From assembly GCF_004331485.1 (NCBI RefSeq), contig NZ_SJKD01000003.1, positions 496,001-560,000 of the forward strand: a DNA stretch of 64,000 bases, given 5' to 3'. The notes below the pieces were generated by a model, which had not been told where the DNA came from, ran no database searches, and worked only from the letters and a program-made list of their open reading frames with translations. A program made the translations under genes and the position numbers. Below, one piece after another: positions 46,096 through 54,173 of the stretch (within the stretch, counting starts at the first letter, position 1; the number at the start of each line of letters is the position of its first letter). The stretch is from Kribbella capetownensis. GTDB lineage: Bacteria; Actinomycetota; Actinomycetes; Propionibacteriales; Kribbellaceae.

Positions 46096-46131
46096 TTTAC
46101 TCGCAGCGCGACCTTCCTTATATTTTCGGCC
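46096..46131 (+). promoter_or_regulatory. promoter of the hydrazine-type biosynthetic operon
   Basis: -35 TTTACT (46096-46101), 17-bp spacer, -10 TATATT (46119-46124). The surrounding 46070-46130 is clearly AT-richer than its neighbours. The predicted start near 46131 leaves a leader of about 160 nt before the cupin ATG, so post-transcriptional control is possible. Confidence 0.6.
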
Positions 46132-46292
46132 ACGGAGACTGGGGGGTCGCCGAGCTTTTCACGTAGCCGACGTTGGTGGCGTCGCGCGTGCTCGTTCCAG
46201 GGCTGATCGCAGCGTCTTGTTCCGTACCAACATTCCGCTGTCATTCAACTTCTTCAGCCGCGCCTGGCGCCGGCTACGGAGGGTGGCGAAGC

Positions 46293-46646
46293 ATGCGCAC
46301 ATTCGATCTGAGCACCGGTGACGACCAGTACGTGAAGGACCTGCGGGTGGTCCGTTGGGAGCAGTACGGACTCGAGCGGGACCTGCCCTTCCAGGCGATG
46401 TGGTACTCCGTTCCGCCGGGTTCGGAAAGCCCGGTCGACCAGCACCCCGAACTCGAACTGTCCGTCGTCGTCGCGGGAACGGCGTACGTCGTCGTCGGCG
46501 GCCGCGAACACGTGGTCCCCCAAGGCAACGCCTTCCTGCTCAGCAGTACCGAGGCGCACGTCGTACAGAACCGGTCGGCCGACACCGAACTGACCGTCTT
46601 CAGCGCCTATTGGATGCCGATCACCGCCGAGCCCGGCCATGGCTGA
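46293..46646 (+). CDS. stand-alone cupin, probable N-N-bond-forming component
   Basis: The 117-residue single-domain cupin has metal-ligand candidates in 'VDQHPELELSVVVAGTAYVV' (about residues 48-67) and 'SSTEAHVVQN' (about 87-96). In hydrazine synthetases of the s56-p1 and triacsin pathways, a cupin is fused to the N terminus of a MetRS-like domain and performs the rearrangement that makes the N-N bond. Here the cupin is separate but lies directly before, and overlaps by 8 bp, the MetRS-like gene. ATG 46293 has GGAGGG 9 nt upstream. An in-frame GTG at 46173 is rejected because the extension has no cupin homology or ribosome site. Confidence 0.75.
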   Translation: MRTFDLSTGDDQYVKDLRVVRWEQYGLERDLPFQAMWYSVPPGSESPVDQHPELELSVVVAGTAYVVVGGREHVVPQGNAFLLSSTEAHVVQNRSADTELTVFSAYWMPITAEPGHG

Positions 46647-47899
46647 TCCGGTCACGGTCTTCACTTCCCCACAGCCGACCGTCAACGGCCCGTTGCACGT
46701 CGGCCATCTGGCCGGTCCGTACCTCGGGGCCGACCTAGCCGCCCGGGCCGCGCGCGCCCGCGGCGAGCGCGTCGTGGTCACCACCGGCCTCGACGTGCAC
46801 CTGAACTACGTGCTGACCCGCGCCGAGGGCGAAGGCGTCGAGGTCGGCGTGATGACGGCGGAGTTCCGCGACGACATCAAGGCCACCTCCGCTGCGACGC
46901 CGTTGCGCGAGATCACCCTGCACGCCTGCGCGGATTGCGGCCGGACCCTGCACGAGTCCTACCTGCGTGGCCTGTGCGGCGAGTGCAAGGCACCCGCAGC
47001 AGGCGGCGCGTGTGAACAGTGCGGCAGCCTCACTCAGGTCGACACCATGGTCGATCCGGTCTGCGGCCACTGTGGTGGCGAGCCGCGTCCCTTCGCCGCG
47101 ACGGTGCCGGTACTGCGGATGGAGGACCACCGCGAAGCCCTGATCGCGATGTGGTTGCGCGCCGATCTGCCACCCGCCGTCCGCGACCTGATCGACCGGA
47201 CCCTGCAGGCCAGACTCCCGGAGCTCGCACTCGCCTACCCCACCAACTGGGGACTTGAAGGCGACGGTCCGCTCACCGGCCTGCGGATCGGCCCGTACAC
47301 CGAGATCGCGCTCTCCGACCTGTACGCCGTTGCCCGCGGCATCGATCCGGAGGCCGCGGATGTACCGGAGTACCTGACGGCGCTGACCCAGGTCGGATCG
47401 CTGTGGCACTTCCTCGGCCTGGACAACGCGTTCTGGTACGCGTTGTACTGGCCGGCCGTCCGGGCCGCGGCCGGCGTCGCCCGGCTGCCCCTTTCCGGCC
47501 TGGTGGTGAACGAGTTCTACACGTTCGCCGGAGAGAAATTCTCGACCAGCCGGAAACACGGGACCGGCGCGACGGAATTGCTGCGGACCGAAGACCCGTC
47601 AATCGTTCGCTTGTTTCTGGCCTGGGACCGGCCAGACCGCTTCCGTAGTGATTTCAGCTTCAATTCCTTCCGCGCCTTCGCCGAGCGGGTCGAACCCATT
47701 GCTCGCCGGCGGCGAGAGCGTTTCCGAGCCACTCGATCCAGACCTTTCCTCGATCGAACTCGCCCGCGGCGAAAGCGCCTTGCGGCCGGACGGATTCGAT
47801 CCACCGCTGGCGGTCCGCAGTCTGCTCACGCTGCTCGCCGGCGGCATCCAGGAGACCGGGTCACTGCGCGCCGCGCTGACCGGGTCTGAGCAGGAGTAG
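46639..47899 (+). CDS. MetRS-like amino-acid-activating enzyme with apparent +1 frameshift
   Basis: This class I aminoacyl-tRNA-synthetase core has 'PLHVGHLAGPYLG' (HIGH motif, residues 20-23), a zinc insertion with four CXXC pairs (CADC, CGEC, CEQC, CGHC, about 97-145) and KMSKS-like 'KFSTS' (300-304). It lacks the tRNA anticodon domain, so it probably adenylates an amino acid, glycine by analogy with hydrazine synthetases. The ATG frame stays open to 47889, but after about 47690 it becomes Arg-rich nonsense. The +1 frame instead reads 'LLAGGESVSEPLDPDLSSIE' and ends at TAG 47899, inside the next ribosome site. A shift at GAA-CCC-A-TTG (47692-47701) restores a 419-residue protein. It may be a mutation, sequencing error or recoding. 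Confidence 0.78.
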
Positions 47900-47903
47900 G
47901 GCG

Positions 47904-50252
47904 ATGCGAGTCTGCGTCATCGGAGCCGGCATCGCCGGTGCCCTGCTGGCCTGGCGCCTCAGCGAGAGCGTCGAGGTCGACCTGGTGACCGGTGAGGCTG
48001 GGACGGATGCGACCGCGGCGTCGGGCGGCGGCGTACGTGGGTTCGAGACCCATCCGGTCCAGCGTCGGCTGGCCATCGAGAGCCTGACCGAGTTGTTCGA
48101 GGGTCTGCAGGAGCAGGCCGGCTACATCGAGACCGGCTGCACCTACCTGTTGCCGTCGTACGCCGGGCTCGAGGCGGCGGTAGCCGAGGTCGAACACGCC
48201 CACCCGGGCTCGACCGAGATCGTCGACGGCGCCGACCTTCGCCGCCGGGGCTGGCACGGCCTGCCCGACGACACGGTCGGCGTACTCGAGAAGCGGGCCG
48301 GCTTCATCCGGCCGGACCAACTCCGCTCGGCCGTGATCCGCCGGCTCGCGAACGGCCCGCGCAGCCGAGTGCTCAACGGTCCGGTACTCCGGCTCGTGCC
48401 GCACCCGGACGGATCGGTGAGCTGTCGCCTCCCCGCGTCCAGCCACCGGTACGACGCTGTCGTCGTCGCGGCCGGACCGTGGACACCCGGACTGCTCACC
48501 GGCAGCGCGCTCCCGGCCCAGCCGTATCGCACGAAGGCAATCCAGGTCGCCACCTACCGCGTCACCGGCGCCCTGCCGACCATGTTCGTCGACGAGACCA
48601 GTGACCTGTACGGGCGGCCCACCGCCGACGGCCGGCTGCTGCTCGGTGTCGACACCCACCACTGGTCCGTCACTCCCGGCAGCAGCCGGCCGATCCCGGA
48701 CCTGGCCGAGCAGGCCGTCCGGATCGCCGCCGAACGGCTGCCACACCTCAAGCTGTCGGCGCCCGACCTGATGGTCAGCAACGCCGATTGTTACGCCGAT
48801 CCGCCGGTACTGACCCTCTGGTCGGTCCTCGGCAGCTCACATCGGCTCTACACCTTCACCGGTGGGTCCGGGGGCAGCGTGAAAACCGCGCTGGCCGCAA
48901 GCCGGACGGCCGCGAGCGACCTGATCGGCACATCGCGCACCACCACTTCGCGGACGGAGAACAAGCGCATGACCATCACGGAACCAGGCCCGCAGCGAGG
49001 AACGCCCCGCTACCACACCATCGGTATCGGGGCCGGTCCCTCCAACCTCTCGCTGGCGGCGCTGTACCAGAACGTCACCACCGAACCGCTCGCCCTGTTC
49101 GACGCCCGCCCGGGCACCGGCTGGCACACGCCCCTGCTCTACCCCGGGGTCCGGATGCAGACCGGCTGGATGAAGGACCTGGTGTCGCTGGTCGACCCGC
49201 GGCACGAGCTGACGTTCCTGAACTACCTGGTCACCTCCGGGCGGCTCTATGCGCTGATCAACTCCCAGTTCGACTCGCTCCCCCGGATCGAGTACGAGCG
49301 CTATCTGGCCTGGGCGACCGAGCGCCTCGGCGTCGTGCACTTCACCTCCCGGGTGGACTCGATCTCGATCACCGACGACGGCTTCGAGGTCAGCGTCGAC
49401 GGTGTCCCGGCCGGCGTCTCCGAACACCTGGTCCTCGGTCTGGGCACGCGCCCGGTCCGGCCGGCGTACATCACCGAACTGCCCGCCGAGCGTGCCTTCA
49501 TCGCCGACGACCTCGGCGTACGGATGGCTGGGCTGGACACGGCCGCTCCGACAGCGGTTGTCGGCGGCGGCCAGACGGGACTGGAGTGTGTCCTGCGGCT
49601 GCTTGGCTCCGGCTTCACCGACATCCACTGGCTCGGCCGGAACCAGTGGTTCCGCAGCATCGATGACTCGCCGATGGCCAACGAGCTGTACCGGCCGTCC
49701 CACATCGAGTACCTGCAGGGCCTGAACCGCGGCAAGCGCCGTGAGATGATCGACGACTCCCGCTACAGCGGGGACGCCATCACCCCCGGCGGCCTGCGAG
49801 CGCTGTACCAGGCCAACTACGACGGCATGCTGACGCTCGGCCGGTTCCCGGTCACCCTGCTGCCCGGCCGCGACGTCAGGACGTCCGAACTGCTGGCCGA
49901 CGGCAACATCCGCCTGTGCTGTACGACGACCTCAACGCCGGAGGAGCACGTCGTACGGCAGGTGGTGGTCGCGGCCGGGCGCGAGCACGTGACGGCACCG
50001 TTCGACGACGATCTGCGGGAGCGGATCGAGGTCGACGACGACGGTGAACTGCTGGTCGAGCCGGACTACTCGGTGCGCTGGAAAGGCATGAACGGGCACC
50101 GGATCTACACGTTCAACGCGAGCCGGTACAGCCACGGGCTGACGAACGCCGGGCTGACGCAACTGCCGGTCCGGGCCGCGATCGTGCTGAACTCCATGTT
50201 CGAGCGGGAGATCTACCCGATCTCCGACGAGTTGTGCGCGGTGCAGTGGTGA
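47904..50252 (+). CDS. fusion: DAO-type FAD oxidoreductase + L-lysine/L-ornithine N-monooxygenase
   Basis: This is one open frame of 782 residues. Residues 1-350 are a glycine-oxidase/DAO flavoprotein (dinucleotide motif 'VIGAGIAGALLAWRL', 'VVVAAGPWTPGLL', C-terminal 'TFTGGSGGSVKTAL'). Residues 356-782 are an N-hydroxylating monooxygenase of the IucD/PvdA type ('IGIGAGPSNLSLAALYQN' FAD site, 'MQTGWMKDLVSLVDPRHELT', NADPH site 'AVVGGGQTGLECVL'). In hydrazinoacetate pathways these are separate: the monooxygenase makes N6-hydroxylysine, and the oxidase cleaves the lysine-glycine hydrazine. An internal ATG 48969 with GGAGA 8 nt upstream could also yield the monooxygenase alone. Confidence 0.85.
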   Translation: MRVCVIGAGIAGALLAWRLSESVEVDLVTGEAGTDATAASGGGVRGFETHPVQRRLAIESLTELFEGLQEQAGYIETGCTYLLPSYAGLEAAVAEVEHAHPGSTEIVDGADLRRRGWHGLPDDTVGVLEKRAGFIRPDQLRSAVIRRLANGPRSRVLNGPVLRLVPHPDGSVSCRLPASSHRYDAVVVAAGPWTPGLLTGSALPAQPYRTKAIQVATYRVTGALPTMFVDETSDLYGRPTADGRLLLGVDTHHWSVTPGSSRPIPDLAEQAVRIAAERLPHLKLSAPDLMVSNADCYADPPVLTLWSVLGSSHRLYTFTGGSGGSVKTALAASRTAASDLIGTSRTTTSRTENKRMTITEPGPQRGTPRYHTIGIGAGPSNLSLAALYQNVTTEPLALFDARPGTGWHTPLLYPGVRMQTGWMKDLVSLVDPRHELTFLNYLVTSGRLYALINSQFDSLPRIEYERYLAWATERLGVVHFTSRVDSISITDDGFEVSVDGVPAGVSEHLVLGLGTRPVRPAYITELPAERAFIADDLGVRMAGLDTAAPTAVVGGGQTGLECVLRLLGSGFTDIHWLGRNQWFRSIDDSPMANELYRPSHIEYLQGLNRGKRREMIDDSRYSGDAITPGGLRALYQANYDGMLTLGRFPVTLLPGRDVRTSELLADGNIRLCCTTTSTPEEHVVRQVVVAAGREHVTAPFDDDLRERIEVDDDGELLVEPDYSVRWKGMNGHRIYTFNASRYSHGLTNAGLTQLPVRAAIVLNSMFEREIYPISDELCAVQW

Positions 50253-50395
50253 CCGCGACAGTCCCGGAACCGCTGGTCCCCGACGTCGACGGGGTGTGTT
50301 TCCGGCTCGAGGTCGACGATCCGGCCGGCTCGTTCGATGCGGCGTACTGCCCTGGTCACCGCGACAGGCGACCTGGTCAGGGAGGCCTGAGATGA
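50249..50395 (+). CDS. 48-residue coupled small protein, unknown
   Basis: GTG 50249 overlaps the fusion gene stop (GTGA) and its TGA (50393-50395) overlaps the ATG of the ATP-grasp gene (ATGA). Such overlaps at both ends suggest a real coupled cistron. The product starts 'MTATVPEPLVPDVDGVCFRL' and has two cysteines (17 and 34). The first 35 or so codons have typical GC-rich third positions; the last dozen do not, so it may be a truncated remnant. A precursor peptide for the ATP-grasp enzymes is an unproven alternative. Confidence 0.45.
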   Translation: MTATVPEPLVPDVDGVCFRLEVDDPAGSFDAAYCPGHRDRRPGQGGLR

Positions 50396-51639
50396 ACGAA
50401 CGACCTCACCTGCTGGTGGTGGCCACCGGCATGCGGCTGTTCCGGGAGTACATCCTGCGGTCGATCGCACCGCAGTACCGGATCCACATGTTCCTGCACG
50501 CCGAGCCCACCTGGGAGACGGAGTACATCGAGAACTGGACCGTGCTGGACAGCACGCTCGACGCCGACGCTCTGGTCGCCGCGGCGAACGAACTCAACGA
50601 CAAGGAGGCGATCGACGGCGTGCTGTGCTGGGACGAGGCACGCATCCTGCAGACCGCCCGCATCGCCGAAGCGCTCGGGCTGCCGGGCGGTGATGTCGCG
50701 ATGGTGAACCGTTGCCGCGACAAGCACCTGACGCGTACGGCGCTCGCCGAGCACGGCATCCCGCAGCCGAAGTCGATCCTGGTGGCCACCGTCGACGAGG
50801 CACTGGCAGTCGCCGGCGACCTCGGCTACCCGGTGATCCTCAAGCCTCGCGCCCTGGCCGCCAGTCTCGGCGTGGTCAAGGTGAACTCGCCGGAGGAACT
50901 CGGGGCGAACTGGGCCTTCGCTCACGACACGACCGTGCCGGAGGCGCCGCACTACGACGTCAACGTGCTGGTCGAGGAGTTCGCCGACGGCTACGAGATC
51001 AGTATCGACGCGGCGATCTACCAGGGCCAGGTGACGCCGTTCTGCCTGGCCCGCAAGGAGATCGGCTACCCGCCGTACGCCGAAGAGATCGGGCACGTGG
51101 TGGATGCGGCGGATCCGTTGCTCGCCGATGACCAACTCCTGCAGGTGCTCGTCGATGCGCACAAGGCGATCGCGTTCACCGATGGCGTGACGCACACCGA
51201 GCTCATGATCACCGCCGACGGACCGAAGCTGATCGAGATCAACGCCCGGATCGGCGGCGACCTGATCCCGTACCTCGGTCTGCAGGCGACCGGTGTGGAT
51301 CCGGGGCTGGCGGCGGCCGCGGTCGCGTGCGGGCGTCAGCCCCTGCTGCTGCCGGACCGCACCATGGTCGGCGGCGTCCGCTTCTTCTACGTGGACGAGG
51401 ACGACACGGTGCTCGACTCCGTCGGCTTCGACTCCGACGGTCTGCCGGGCACGATCGACCAACTGGTGCCACTGATGGAGGTCGGCGCCACGACCAGCCC
51501 TCCGCCGGCGGGCACGCTGTGGGGCCGGATCGCCTACGCCACGACCGTCGCCACCACGGTGGACGACTGCCGCGCCGGACTCGACGCGGCGGAGAAGGCG
51601 CTGCGCTGGTCAGGCCATCCCAAGGAGCCGACGCCATGA
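50392..51639 (+). CDS. ATP-grasp ligase 1 (carboxylate-amine ligase)
   Basis: The 415-residue protein has the biotin-carboxylase/D-Ala-D-Ala-ligase type ATP-grasp fold: 'DKHLTRTALAEHGIPQPKSI' (about 112), ATP lysine in 'YPVILKPRALAASLGVVKV', 'VLVEEFADGYEISIDAAIY' and metal-binding 'KLIEINARIGGDLIPYL' (about 281-297). It should activate a carboxylate as acyl phosphate and join it to an amine, plausibly hydrazinoacetate to an amino acid. ATG 50392 has GGGAGG 8 nt upstream. The stop overlaps the MFS start (ATGA). Confidence 0.85.
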   Translation: MNERPHLLVVATGMRLFREYILRSIAPQYRIHMFLHAEPTWETEYIENWTVLDSTLDADALVAAANELNDKEAIDGVLCWDEARILQTARIAEALGLPGGDVAMVNRCRDKHLTRTALAEHGIPQPKSILVATVDEALAVAGDLGYPVILKPRALAASLGVVKVNSPEELGANWAFAHDTTVPEAPHYDVNVLVEEFADGYEISIDAAIYQGQVTPFCLARKEIGYPPYAEEIGHVVDAADPLLADDQLLQVLVDAHKAIAFTDGVTHTELMITADGPKLIEINARIGGDLIPYLGLQATGVDPGLAAAAVACGRQPLLLPDRTMVGGVRFFYVDEDDTVLDSVGFDSDGLPGTIDQLVPLMEVGATTSPPPAGTLWGRIAYATTVATTVDDCRAGLDAAEKALRWSGHPKEPTP

Positions 51640-52901
51640 CGTCGACCGACGAGAGCACCGGCATCTGGGAGACCATCCGGGATGCTCCGGTGCCGGTGAA
51701 GGCGCTGCTGGTCGGCGTGTTCGTGAACAAGCTCGGCTGGTTCCTGCAGGTCTTCCTGGTGTTGTTCCTGACCACGTCGAAGGGGTTCACGCCGGTCCAG
51801 GCCGGCACCGCGCTCGGCGTGTACGGCGGTGGCTCGGTGATCGGCCTGATCATCGGCGGATCGCTGTCGGACCGGGTCGGGCCACGGGCCGCGGTGATGA
51901 TCAGCATGTTCGGGATGGCGGGATTCGTCCTCGCGATCGCCTACGTACCGAGCTACACGGCCGTGGTGGTCGTGGTGGCGCTGGCCGGTGCGGTCGGCCA
52001 GTTCTACCGCCCGGCCTCGGCCGCCCTGCTGACCGAGCTGACACCGAAGAACCGGCAGGTGATGATCTTCGCGGTCTACCGGCTGGCCATGAACCTCGGT
52101 ACGACGGCAGCGCCGCTGATCGGCGCCGCCCTCGTCGCGGTGTCCTGGAACCTGCTGTTCATCGGCGAAGCGGTCGCCGCACTGGCCTACGCGGCAGTGG
52201 CGATCGTCGCGCTGCCGAAGCGATCCGCAACCGCCGTTGAGCAAACCCCGGACGACCAGCCGTCGGCCGGCGGCTACGTCGCCGTACTGCGGGACTACAA
52301 GTACGTGCTGTTCCTGCTGTGCATGTTCATCAACGCGGCGATCTACATGCAGTACTTGGCCGTGCTGCCGCTGCACATGAAAGCGGACGGGCTGTCGACC
52401 TGGTGGTACAGCGCGATCGTCGCGCTCAACGGCTTCGTCGTGATCACCTGTGAGTTGCTCGTGACGAAGGTGGTGCAGAACCGACCGGCGAGAGTGGTCG
52501 CGATGACCGGTTTCGTACTGCTGGGCGGCGGCCTCGCGTTCTACGCCCTGCCCGGCGGGTTGGCGATCTTCGTGATCGGCACCCTGCTCTGGACACTGGC
52601 CGAGATCATCGGCGGCCCGACCATGTTCGCGTATCCAGGTATGGCCGCACCGAAGCCATTACTCGGCCGGTACGTCGGATCCGCGCACGCCATGTTCGGC
52701 CTCGGGTCCGCCCTTGGCCCGTTCCTCGGAGTGTGGGTGTGGAACACGTCCGGCAGCCAGGTCTGGGTGTGGTGCGGGCTGGCCGGCGCGATCGGCGTCG
52801 TCCTCGCGTACTTCGGCATGACGCCCACGACCGCCGAGGACACCAGCATCGACGCCACTCCGGCCGCGGAGCCGGAGCTTGTAGGAGGACAAGATGAGTA
52901 G
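51636..52901 (+). CDS. MFS transporter of the biosynthetic operon
   Basis: The 421-residue protein has about 12 helices with MFS motif A 'GGSLSDRVGPRAAVMI' (about residues 74-89) and a basic central loop ('ALPKRSATAVEQTPDD'). It is embedded by 4-bp and 8-bp overlaps between the two ATP-grasp genes and most likely exports the product, giving self-protection. ATG 51636 is fixed by the ATGA junction. Confidence 0.85.
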   Translation: MTSTDESTGIWETIRDAPVPVKALLVGVFVNKLGWFLQVFLVLFLTTSKGFTPVQAGTALGVYGGGSVIGLIIGGSLSDRVGPRAAVMISMFGMAGFVLAIAYVPSYTAVVVVVALAGAVGQFYRPASAALLTELTPKNRQVMIFAVYRLAMNLGTTAAPLIGAALVAVSWNLLFIGEAVAALAYAAVAIVALPKRSATAVEQTPDDQPSAGGYVAVLRDYKYVLFLLCMFINAAIYMQYLAVLPLHMKADGLSTWWYSAIVALNGFVVITCELLVTKVVQNRPARVVAMTGFVLLGGGLAFYALPGGLAIFVIGTLLWTLAEIIGGPTMFAYPGMAAPKPLLGRYVGSAHAMFGLGSALGPFLGVWVWNTSGSQVWVWCGLAGAIGVVLAYFGMTPTTAEDTSIDATPAAEPELVGGQDE

Positions 52902-54132
52902 CTACACGATCATCGTGGACCCGCTGTCCACGGGACAGGAATATCCGGCCGCGTTCCGCGAGGCCGGCCGGCTGCCGGTCGCCGTACTCAGTGCTTCCGA
53001 GCCCCCACCGGCCTACACGACGAGCTGGCATCCGGAGGACTTCGAGCACGTGCACTACTTCACCGGCGACGTACAGGCGCTCGTCGAGGAGCTGCGGCAG
53101 TACGAGCCGGAGTACCTGGTGCCTGGTGCGGAGAGCGGGGTCGAGCTGTGCGACCGGCTGATCGGGCTCCTGGCTCCCGGCACCGGCAACGTCCCGGAGC
53201 TGGCGCCGGCACGGCGGGACAAGTGGGAGATGGCGCAGGCGCTCGCGGCCGCGGGTGTACCGCGGTTGCGCCAGTTCCTGACCGCGGATCCGGTCGAGGC
53301 GGAGCGGTGGCTGAAGGAGAACGACCTGCTCGGCAAGCGGCTGGTGATCAAGCCGTCGAAGAGCGCCGCCGGCGACGAGGTGTACGTCGTCTTCGAGGAC
53401 GGTGACTGGCGGGAGCGGTTCGACCGGGTCCTTGGCCGGACCAACAAGATGGGGCTGACCAACGACGCCGTCCTGATCCAGGAGTACGCCGAAGGAACGG
53501 AGTACCTGGTCGACACCTACAGCGTGGACGGGAAGCACGCACTGGTCGACGTGTGCCGCTACACGAAGGTCGGCCGGGGCGACAAGATCGGCATCTACCG
53601 GCGGATCGACTTCCTGGCCGAGGCCGACGCGGAGGTGCAGGCGCTGTGGCCGTACACCAGGGACGTGCTCGACGCGGTCGGCATCCGGGTCGGCTGCGGT
53701 CATGTCGAGGTGATGATGACGCCGGCCGGACCGCGGCTGATCGAGGTCGCGGCGCGGCCCGCCGGCGGTGGTCACCAGATGGTCAGCGACCTCGCCACCG
53801 GTGACAACCACATCAAGCGCACGGTGGCGCACCGGGTGCGCGGCGAGGTGCGGGACGGCTTCGACCTGGTCCAGCACCTACGCGGCATCTTCGTCATCGC
53901 ACCGCGGGAGGGGTACTTCCGCAACCGCGAGATCTTCGACGACATCGAGTCGCTGAAGTCGTTCCACTGGATGAAGATCCTGTACGACGAGGACGCCGTC
54001 GTCCCCGAGACCGTGGATCTGTTCACCTGCCTGGCCTGGGTCATCCTGATCCACAGCGACCCGGCCACCCTCGACGCCGACTACCACCGGGTCCTGGAGA
54101 TGGAGTCCGGCATCGTCATCACCACCGCCTGA
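52894..54132 (+). CDS. ATP-grasp ligase 2
   Basis: The 412-residue ATP-grasp protein belongs to a different branch from ligase 1. Its N domain ends 'PEYLVPGAESGVELCDRL'; next come 'DKWEMAQALAAAGVPRLRQF', ATP lysine 'RLVIKPSKSAAGDEVYVV', 'VLIQEYAEGTEYLVDTYSVD' and a variant metal motif 'RLIEVAARPAGGG' (Ala-Ala where N-x is usual). It may make a second amide bond or act on a different carboxylate. GGAGG 5 nt before ATG 52894 is strong. It is the last gene, followed by a 17-bp terminator. Confidence 0.83.
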   Translation: MSSYTIIVDPLSTGQEYPAAFREAGRLPVAVLSASEPPPAYTTSWHPEDFEHVHYFTGDVQALVEELRQYEPEYLVPGAESGVELCDRLIGLLAPGTGNVPELAPARRDKWEMAQALAAAGVPRLRQFLTADPVEAERWLKENDLLGKRLVIKPSKSAAGDEVYVVFEDGDWRERFDRVLGRTNKMGLTNDAVLIQEYAEGTEYLVDTYSVDGKHALVDVCRYTKVGRGDKIGIYRRIDFLAEADAEVQALWPYTRDVLDAVGIRVGCGHVEVMMTPAGPRLIEVAARPAGGGHQMVSDLATGDNHIKRTVAHRVRGEVRDGFDLVQHLRGIFVIAPREGYFRNREIFDDIESLKSFHWMKILYDEDAVVPETVDLFTCLAWVILIHSDPATLDADYHRVLEMESGIVITTA

Positions 54133-54135
54133 AGC

Positions 54136-54173
54136 CGGCGGGGTATCCCTTGAAAACAAGGGATACCCCGCCG
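54136..54173. terminator. strong bidirectional terminator closing the biosynthetic operon
   Basis: A perfect 17-bp stem CGGCGGGGTATCCCTTG / CAAGGGATACCCCGCCG with an AAAA loop lies between the ATP-grasp stop and the convergent phoX stop. Confidence 0.9.

Follow-up and report, generated by a model that had tools for sequence, protein, structure and literature searches.

A probable albofungin-type hydrazine cassette with ATP-grasp ligases in Kribbella capetownensis, damaged in two genes

N–N bonds are rare in biology, and a short operon of Kribbella capetownensis raises the questions of whether such a bond is made there, for what kind of product, and whether the local copy of the pathway is still complete. 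The operon lies at positions 46293–54132, + strand, of a stretch of 64,000 nucleotides analysed here as a whole (the window; positions 496,001 to 560,000 of contig NZ_SJKD01000003.1). With gene ends overlapping or abutting throughout, it contains, in this order, genes for a cupin, a methionyl-tRNA synthetase (MetRS)-like protein, a DAO-type flavoprotein fused to an N-hydroxylase, a remnant open reading frame (ORF) of 48 aa, a first ATP-grasp ligase, an MFS transporter and a second ATP-grasp ligase. The ORFs and the Pfam families of the proteins (Cupin_2, tRNA-synt_1g, DAO plus Lys_Orn_oxgnase, ATP-grasp_4 in both ligases and MFS_1) agree with an earlier sequence-only reading, which had listed these functions on one strand with nearly all genes overlapping. 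All the genes that it named are present, but a conserved gene, called gene X here, and the damage to the MetRS-like gene had been overlooked. With somewhat better than even confidence, we read the operon as a hydrazine-forming cassette of the albofungin type to which ATP-grasp ligases and an exporter have been added, and the local copy of which has decayed in two genes.

N–N bond chemistry and the albofungin cassette

The cupin (117 aa, 46293–46646, +) retains in the window copy all four zinc ligands, D49, H51, E55 and H89, with a 2-4-34 spacing identical to that of RHS1 and PyrN. The published ligands are D63/H65/E69/H103 in RHS1 and H50/H52/E56/H90 in PyrN, the first position being either D or H (PMC8664883). 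This fits the D/H-x-H-xxx-E-...-H pattern of cupin/MetRS-like hydrazine synthetases, in which the Glu is invariant. The cupin was aligned to the RHS1 structure 5uqp by a profile search (E 0.025), and its closest structure was PDB 5j7m, matched at 1e-64. The printed stretch of 5j7m, an entry deposited under a generic name, was the same as the cupin of locus L033 when the two were compared by eye.

The adjoining MetRS-like gene (46639–47899, +), the putative adenylating half of a hydrazine synthetase, encodes the ATP-binding motifs HVGH and KFSTS. In a tree of 124 rows built with a quick method, the Kribbella proteins fell within a 66-row clade (SH-aLRT 99) that includes the albofungin locus of Streptomyces monomycini NRRL B-24309 (L129), and this clade was separate from ordinary MetRS, including that of the genus itself, and from the RHA1 and Microcystis proteins. 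Proteins of known structure related to the MetRS-like protein are filed in the PDB as Met-tRNA ligases; two entries filed as Methionine-tRNA ligase, 9l8v and 9vq4, gave a better match than other MetRS entries and may be family members carrying a generic label.

The third gene (47904–50252, +) is intact and consists of a single ORF of 782 aa, with a DAO-type FAD oxidase domain (~aa 1–340) followed by a lysine/ornithine-type N-hydroxylase domain (~aa 368–780); both domains had been recognised earlier, as two proteins rather than one. The fusion was found in 18 of 18 Kribbella relatives, which rules out an assembly artefact, and in none of the 15 loci of other genera that were checked, where the two are separate genes. 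In a tree of 79 rows, the hydroxylase grouped with hydrazine-cluster hydroxylases, including that of RHA1 (97/96), and FbsI, DfoA, 6xbb and the other hydroxylase of the same genome fell outside its group. The earlier reading had named two sequence results that would refute it, a clustering of the monooxygenase domain with siderophore ornithine hydroxylases and of the MetRS-like protein with ordinary MetRS fragments; neither was observed with the enzymes compared here. When the hydroxylase was searched by blastn in E. coli genomes, no match was returned. The cupin ligands, the MetRS-like clade and the grouping of the hydroxylase agree with the proposal that an N–N bond is formed from an N-hydroxylated amine and an amino acid, and by strong homology this chemistry appears well supported.

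For comparison with known pathways, three loci served as stand-ins for Spb38-40 and Tri26-28: L129 (albofungin), L087 from Streptomyces lavendulae pSA3239 (hydrazinoacetate-type by gene content) and L086 (RHA1). Judged by these stand-ins, the closest characterised cassette appears to be that of albofungin and not the Spb/Tri hydrazinoacetate type. Locus L129 carries Asn-synthase, halogenase and POT-transporter genes together with a cupin, a MetRS-like gene, a DAO and gene X, and the first three match the content of the albofungin cluster published with orfDEF, orfA and orfL (PMC9469721). As in Kribbella, the albofungin genes (afn8/afn9/afn18; orfDEF plus abf6; S. monomycini and S. tumemacerans) comprise a stand-alone MetRS-like protein with a separate cupin and DAO, in the order cupin–MetRS–DAO; in L129, a gene X homologue lies downstream, the MetRS-like protein is 43% identical to that of Kribbella, and the DAO shares 45% identity along its length (213 bits). 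The combination of cupin, stand-alone MetRS-like protein, albofungin-type DAO and gene X is found in Kribbella, with gene X whole in the relatives and a remnant in the window. Unlike the operon, the albofungin genes belong to a polyketide cluster, whose hydrazine transferase is Asn-synthase-like, whereas the Kribbella operon has ATP-grasp ligases and the fused DAO-hydroxylase, and contains neither a polyketide synthase (PKS) nor a transferase of that kind. In addition, L129 has an FAD-linked oxidase-like gene (named by eye) between the DAO and gene X, and its examined stretch gave no match to the hydroxylase. In the albofungin pathway, Afn8, Afn9 and Afn18 have been hypothesised to yield free hydrazine, which would be transferred by Afn14 (PMC11705231).

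The hydrazine synthetases PyrN, Spb40, Tri28 and RHS1 resemble the Kribbella pair in the cupin ligands and their spacing (PyrN and RHS1), in the HVGH/KFSTS motifs and in being paired with a lysine-type N-hydroxylase. However, PyrN and Spb40 are fused didomain proteins, whereas the Kribbella cupin and MetRS-like protein are separate, and the latter belongs to another clade than that of RHA1.

Two decayed genes and a second locus

When compared with K. pittospori, the nearest relative, the MetRS-like gene of the window lacks 96 bp after position 46881 and carries a 1-bp insertion (+1 frameshift) near 47695; the ancestral frame stops at a TAG at 47897–47899, and the apparent ORF ends at 47889. 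The apparent protein of 416 aa is not the native one, which measures 447–451 aa in all but one of the 18 relatives and 493 aa in that one. The deletion removes 32 residues of the catalytic domain (82–113), which AlphaFold, modelling the intact protein of K. pittospori (pLDDT 95), places at the end of helix 69–86, in strand 93–95 and most of helix 102–115, and the C-terminus is frameshifted, so the catalytic domain of the operon copy is not intact.

Gene X lies between the hydroxylase and the first ATP-grasp gene and encodes 118–131 aa in 17 relatives. In the eighteenth it encodes 78 aa (L042 8941-9174, genome G027), and this carrier also has the second-locus MetRS paralogue described below. 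Compared with K. pittospori, the window copy has lost ~234 bp net and is frameshifted, leaving the 48-aa remnant (50249–50395, +); this origin rules out the small ORF as a precursor peptide. Gene X gave no family match and no PDB sequence match. For K. pittospori, the intact protein was modelled as an eight-stranded barrel (pLDDT 92), and its best structural matches were avidins (VIA Z ~11–12, root-mean-square deviation mostly 2.1–3.2 Å, Foldseek E at best 1e-3); the protein is thus a predicted avidin-like barrel, a likeness of fold that carries no functional proof.

With both the MetRS-like gene and gene X decayed, the operon alone is not expected to make the N–N bond. A second locus of the same genome (G000:C7:15231-18440; L067 7232-10441) contains an ATP-grasp-like gene, a MetRS-like paralogue ~54% identical to that of the operon and a gene X paralogue, all of them open, and these two paralogues may stand in for the broken copies. 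The MetRS-like paralogue was detected in 10 genomes, every one a carrier of the operon, and the ATP-grasp-like gene (at least ~60% identity) was present in 14 of 19 carriers and in none of 19 other genomes (p 2e-6, shared ancestry ignored). The top Pfam matches of this ATP-grasp-like protein were two circularly permuted ATP-grasp families, CP_ATPgrasp_1 (15.6 bits, cut-off 23.1) and CP_ATPgrasp_2 (14.7 bits, cut-off 32), both below their cut-offs, and a homologue of its gene adjoins the main gene set in Dactylosporangium and Catenulispora.

A plausible minority reading is that the pathway is dead, the MetRS-like gene and gene X having been lost in this genome and the rest being yet to decay. 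Several separate lesions across two genes would fit such a history, as would the substitutions, which were assigned to branches by parsimony with three outgroups. On the window branch, 14 substitutions were counted in 353 aa of the MetRS-like protein compared to 20 in 2147 aa of the other proteins (Fisher p 9e-5), whereas the K. pittospori branch showed no such excess (5 and 18, respectively; p 0.36). Residues invariant in the relatives are altered as well (Q55L and W307R). In contrast, the genes other than the MetRS-like gene and gene X gave pairwise dN/dS values of 0.02–0.13 against K. pittospori (0.08 for the DAO-hydroxylase, 0.10 for ATP-grasp 1, 0.09 for the MFS transporter and 0.13 for ATP-grasp 2) and jointly had no excess of substitutions on the window branch (20 compared to 18 on the sister branch). 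These remaining genes look to be under purifying selection, although the small divergence between the sisters leaves room for a recent loss. Moreover, the promoter is conserved, and it is precisely the two broken genes that have intact paralogues at the second locus.

Another MetRS-like/cupin cluster of the hydrazine-synthetase type, with an ATP-grasp-like gene and a gene X homologue of its own, was detected in eight non-carriers and read through in two of them (L191 and L192). This cluster (L191 1256-13196; L192) comprises a cupin, a MetRS-like protein, a DAO-like protein, an ATP-grasp, a solute-binding protein, a P450-like protein, an MFS transporter, the ATP-grasp-like protein and the gene X homologue. 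The operon and a cluster of this type were never found in one genome.

Alternative pathways

The sequence-only reading had assigned the operon to the s56-p1/triacsin pathway, in which lysine and glycine give hydrazinoacetate, to be built into a peptide by the ATP-grasp ligases. The enzyme classes are indeed those of Spb38/39/40 (PMC11705231), and, going by the pockets, glycine may still be the partner, but the individual proteins do not support this assignment, which we now consider unlikely. The DAO, so close to that of albofungin, gave no meaningful alignment with the DAO of L087 (18.5 bits), and the MetRS-like protein differs both in its place in the tree and in its pocket positions, which are unlike those of the hydrazinoacetate-type proteins (L087/L073) and also unlike those of the glutamate-using RHA1 protein. 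Locus L087 resembles the operon in its clustered hydroxylase, DAO-family oxidase, MetRS-like, ATP-grasp and MFS genes, the MFS proteins being ~50% identical, but it also has nonribosomal peptide synthetase (NRPS), carrier protein, GNAT and C45 peptidase genes; the last three, and its adenylase, are absent from the Kribbella operon (compare PMC13061610).

A further hydrazine-type cluster, on plasmid pDFI1 of Deinococcus ficus (L084) and thus outside Actinomycetota, includes a hydroxylase, a cupin, a MetRS-like protein, FAD oxidoreductases, three ATP-grasps and an MFS transporter, with no NRPS in the stretch shown. Unlike the Kribbella operon, its MetRS-like protein belongs to another clade, its best ATP-grasp match is 39% identical, and gene X was not found in it.

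That the operon is really intact and the lesions are sequencing or assembly errors seems very improbable: a single assembly of the strain was analysed and its DNA is GC-rich, but the net losses of 96 bp and ~234 bp and the frameshifts are confined to two genes, and the damaged MetRS-like gene shows an excess of amino-acid substitutions on the same branch. A siderophore or other hydroxamate pathway with an ordinary lysine/ornithine hydroxylase can practically be dismissed, since the enzyme, although a member of the IucD/PvdA superfamily with a putrescine hydroxylase and desferrioxamine-pathway hydroxylases as its best PDB matches, is ruled out as a siderophore hydroxylase by a tree that sets it apart from FbsI, DfoA and 6xbb, has cupin and MetRS-like partners matching hydrazine synthetases, and is encoded in an operon without acyltransferase or siderophore synthetase.

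Several points also weigh against the albofungin-type cassette with local decay. The chemistry of the operon, like its substrate and product, is deduced here from its genes, and the residues of the pocket did not reveal the amino-acid partner of the MetRS-like enzyme. Both the MetRS-like and the hydroxylase trees contain long branches of uncertain placement, and the lesions are known from one assembly. The second-locus MetRS, at its level of identity, may use another substrate, and the free hydrazine of the albofungin pathway has been reported only as a hypothesis (PMC11705231).

Ligases, genomic setting and proposed product

The first ATP-grasp ligase (50392–51639, +) and the second (52894–54132, +) are intact and contain the ATP-grasp domain PF13535, with scores of 56.9 and 43.9 bits, respectively (cut-off 27). 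Ligase 2 belongs to the PRK07206 subfamily (498.6 bits, cut-off 302) and is related to the dapdiamide synthase DdaF, whereas ligase 1 matches the bacilysin enzyme BacD and, partially, PRK02186. However, neither ligase comes close to the equivalog cut-offs of DdaF and BacD; therefore, the substrates of those enzymes are not transferable. Between them lies the intact gene of the MFS transporter (51636–52901, +; MFS_1), a probable exporter. The idea that ATP-grasp ligases act here without NRPS or PKS was judged sound, and the same arrangement recurs in other genera.

Upstream of the operon, a promoter-like pair, TTTACT-17-TATATT (46096–46124, +; 9 of 12 matches), is kept in the 18 Kribbella relatives. 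Downstream lies a 17-bp perfect hairpin (54136–54173, +; −39 kcal/mol, z −8 compared to shuffles), beyond which a PhoX-like gene runs convergently towards the operon. These had been proposed as a promoter and a terminator bounding the operon; both elements are there, but the hairpin lacks a T tract and was not among the calls of the terminator scan. A search for small RNAs or riboswitches in the operon gave no Rfam match.

The operon was detected in 18 other genomes, all Kribbella, and in none outside the genus among 148 relatives (search with ligase 2, E 1e-40). The site is the same in all 18, beside DUF4439-like genes and rimP-nusA (the names DUF4439-like and PhoX-like were read from sequence). 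Six non-carriers were inspected, and in four the DUF4439-like and PhoX-like genes are adjacent (17–74 bp), as expected for an empty site; of the other two, L226 has other genes at the site and L228 has no PhoX-like gene in the stretch examined. This set of genes is also found in Catelliglobosispora, Labedaea, Dactylosporangium and Catenulispora. Among the sister cassettes, the partner is an Asn-synthase in L129 and L121, GH3 in L117, and ATP-grasp genes elsewhere. Among the open-access papers searched, none dealt with hydrazine and gene clusters in Kribbella.

In the albofungin-type cassette proposed here, the N-hydroxylase domain of intact relatives would hydroxylate the amine of the lysine side chain or one like it, and the MetRS-like enzyme would adenylate an amino acid and attach it, giving an O-acyl hydroxylamine ester. 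This ester would then be rearranged by the zinc cupin to create the N–N bond, and the fused DAO domain would oxidatively cleave a C–N bond to release a hydrazino product, which may be the free hydrazine suggested for albofungin. As a predicted small-molecule-binding barrel, the gene X protein probably helps to handle an intermediate. The ATP-grasps, two in the operon and a third, ATP-grasp-like, at the second locus, would couple this product to carboxylic or amino acids, and the resulting small hydrazide or hydrazine peptide would leave the cell through the MFS protein. The most likely product class is an exported, NRPS-independent hydrazide or hydrazine peptide.

A broader proposal, which we hold tentatively and at somewhat less than even confidence, is that the cupin, MetRS-like protein, DAO, N-hydroxylase and avidin-fold gene X form a portable five-gene cassette that supplies free hydrazine or another common hydrazino nucleophile. 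Because the sister cassettes pair with Asn-synthase, GH3 or ATP-grasp partners, this nucleophile could be shared by unrelated ligases, each recruited for a different hydrazide. The Kribbella version, with ATP-grasps and two co-inherited loci, would then make an undescribed NRPS-independent hydrazide or hydrazine peptide, and gene X would encode a new kind of hydrazine-handling protein.

If this is true, a widespread actinobacterial cassette would be linked to the making of hydrazides by ATP-grasp ligases free of PKS and NRPS, a likely role would be given to PDB 5j7m, a cupin held under a generic name, and a conserved, unstudied partner would be named in gene X, all within an operon short enough for heterologous expression. 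The decayed copy in K. capetownensis, with paralogues of its broken genes elsewhere in the genome, would offer a natural test of which parts are replaceable.

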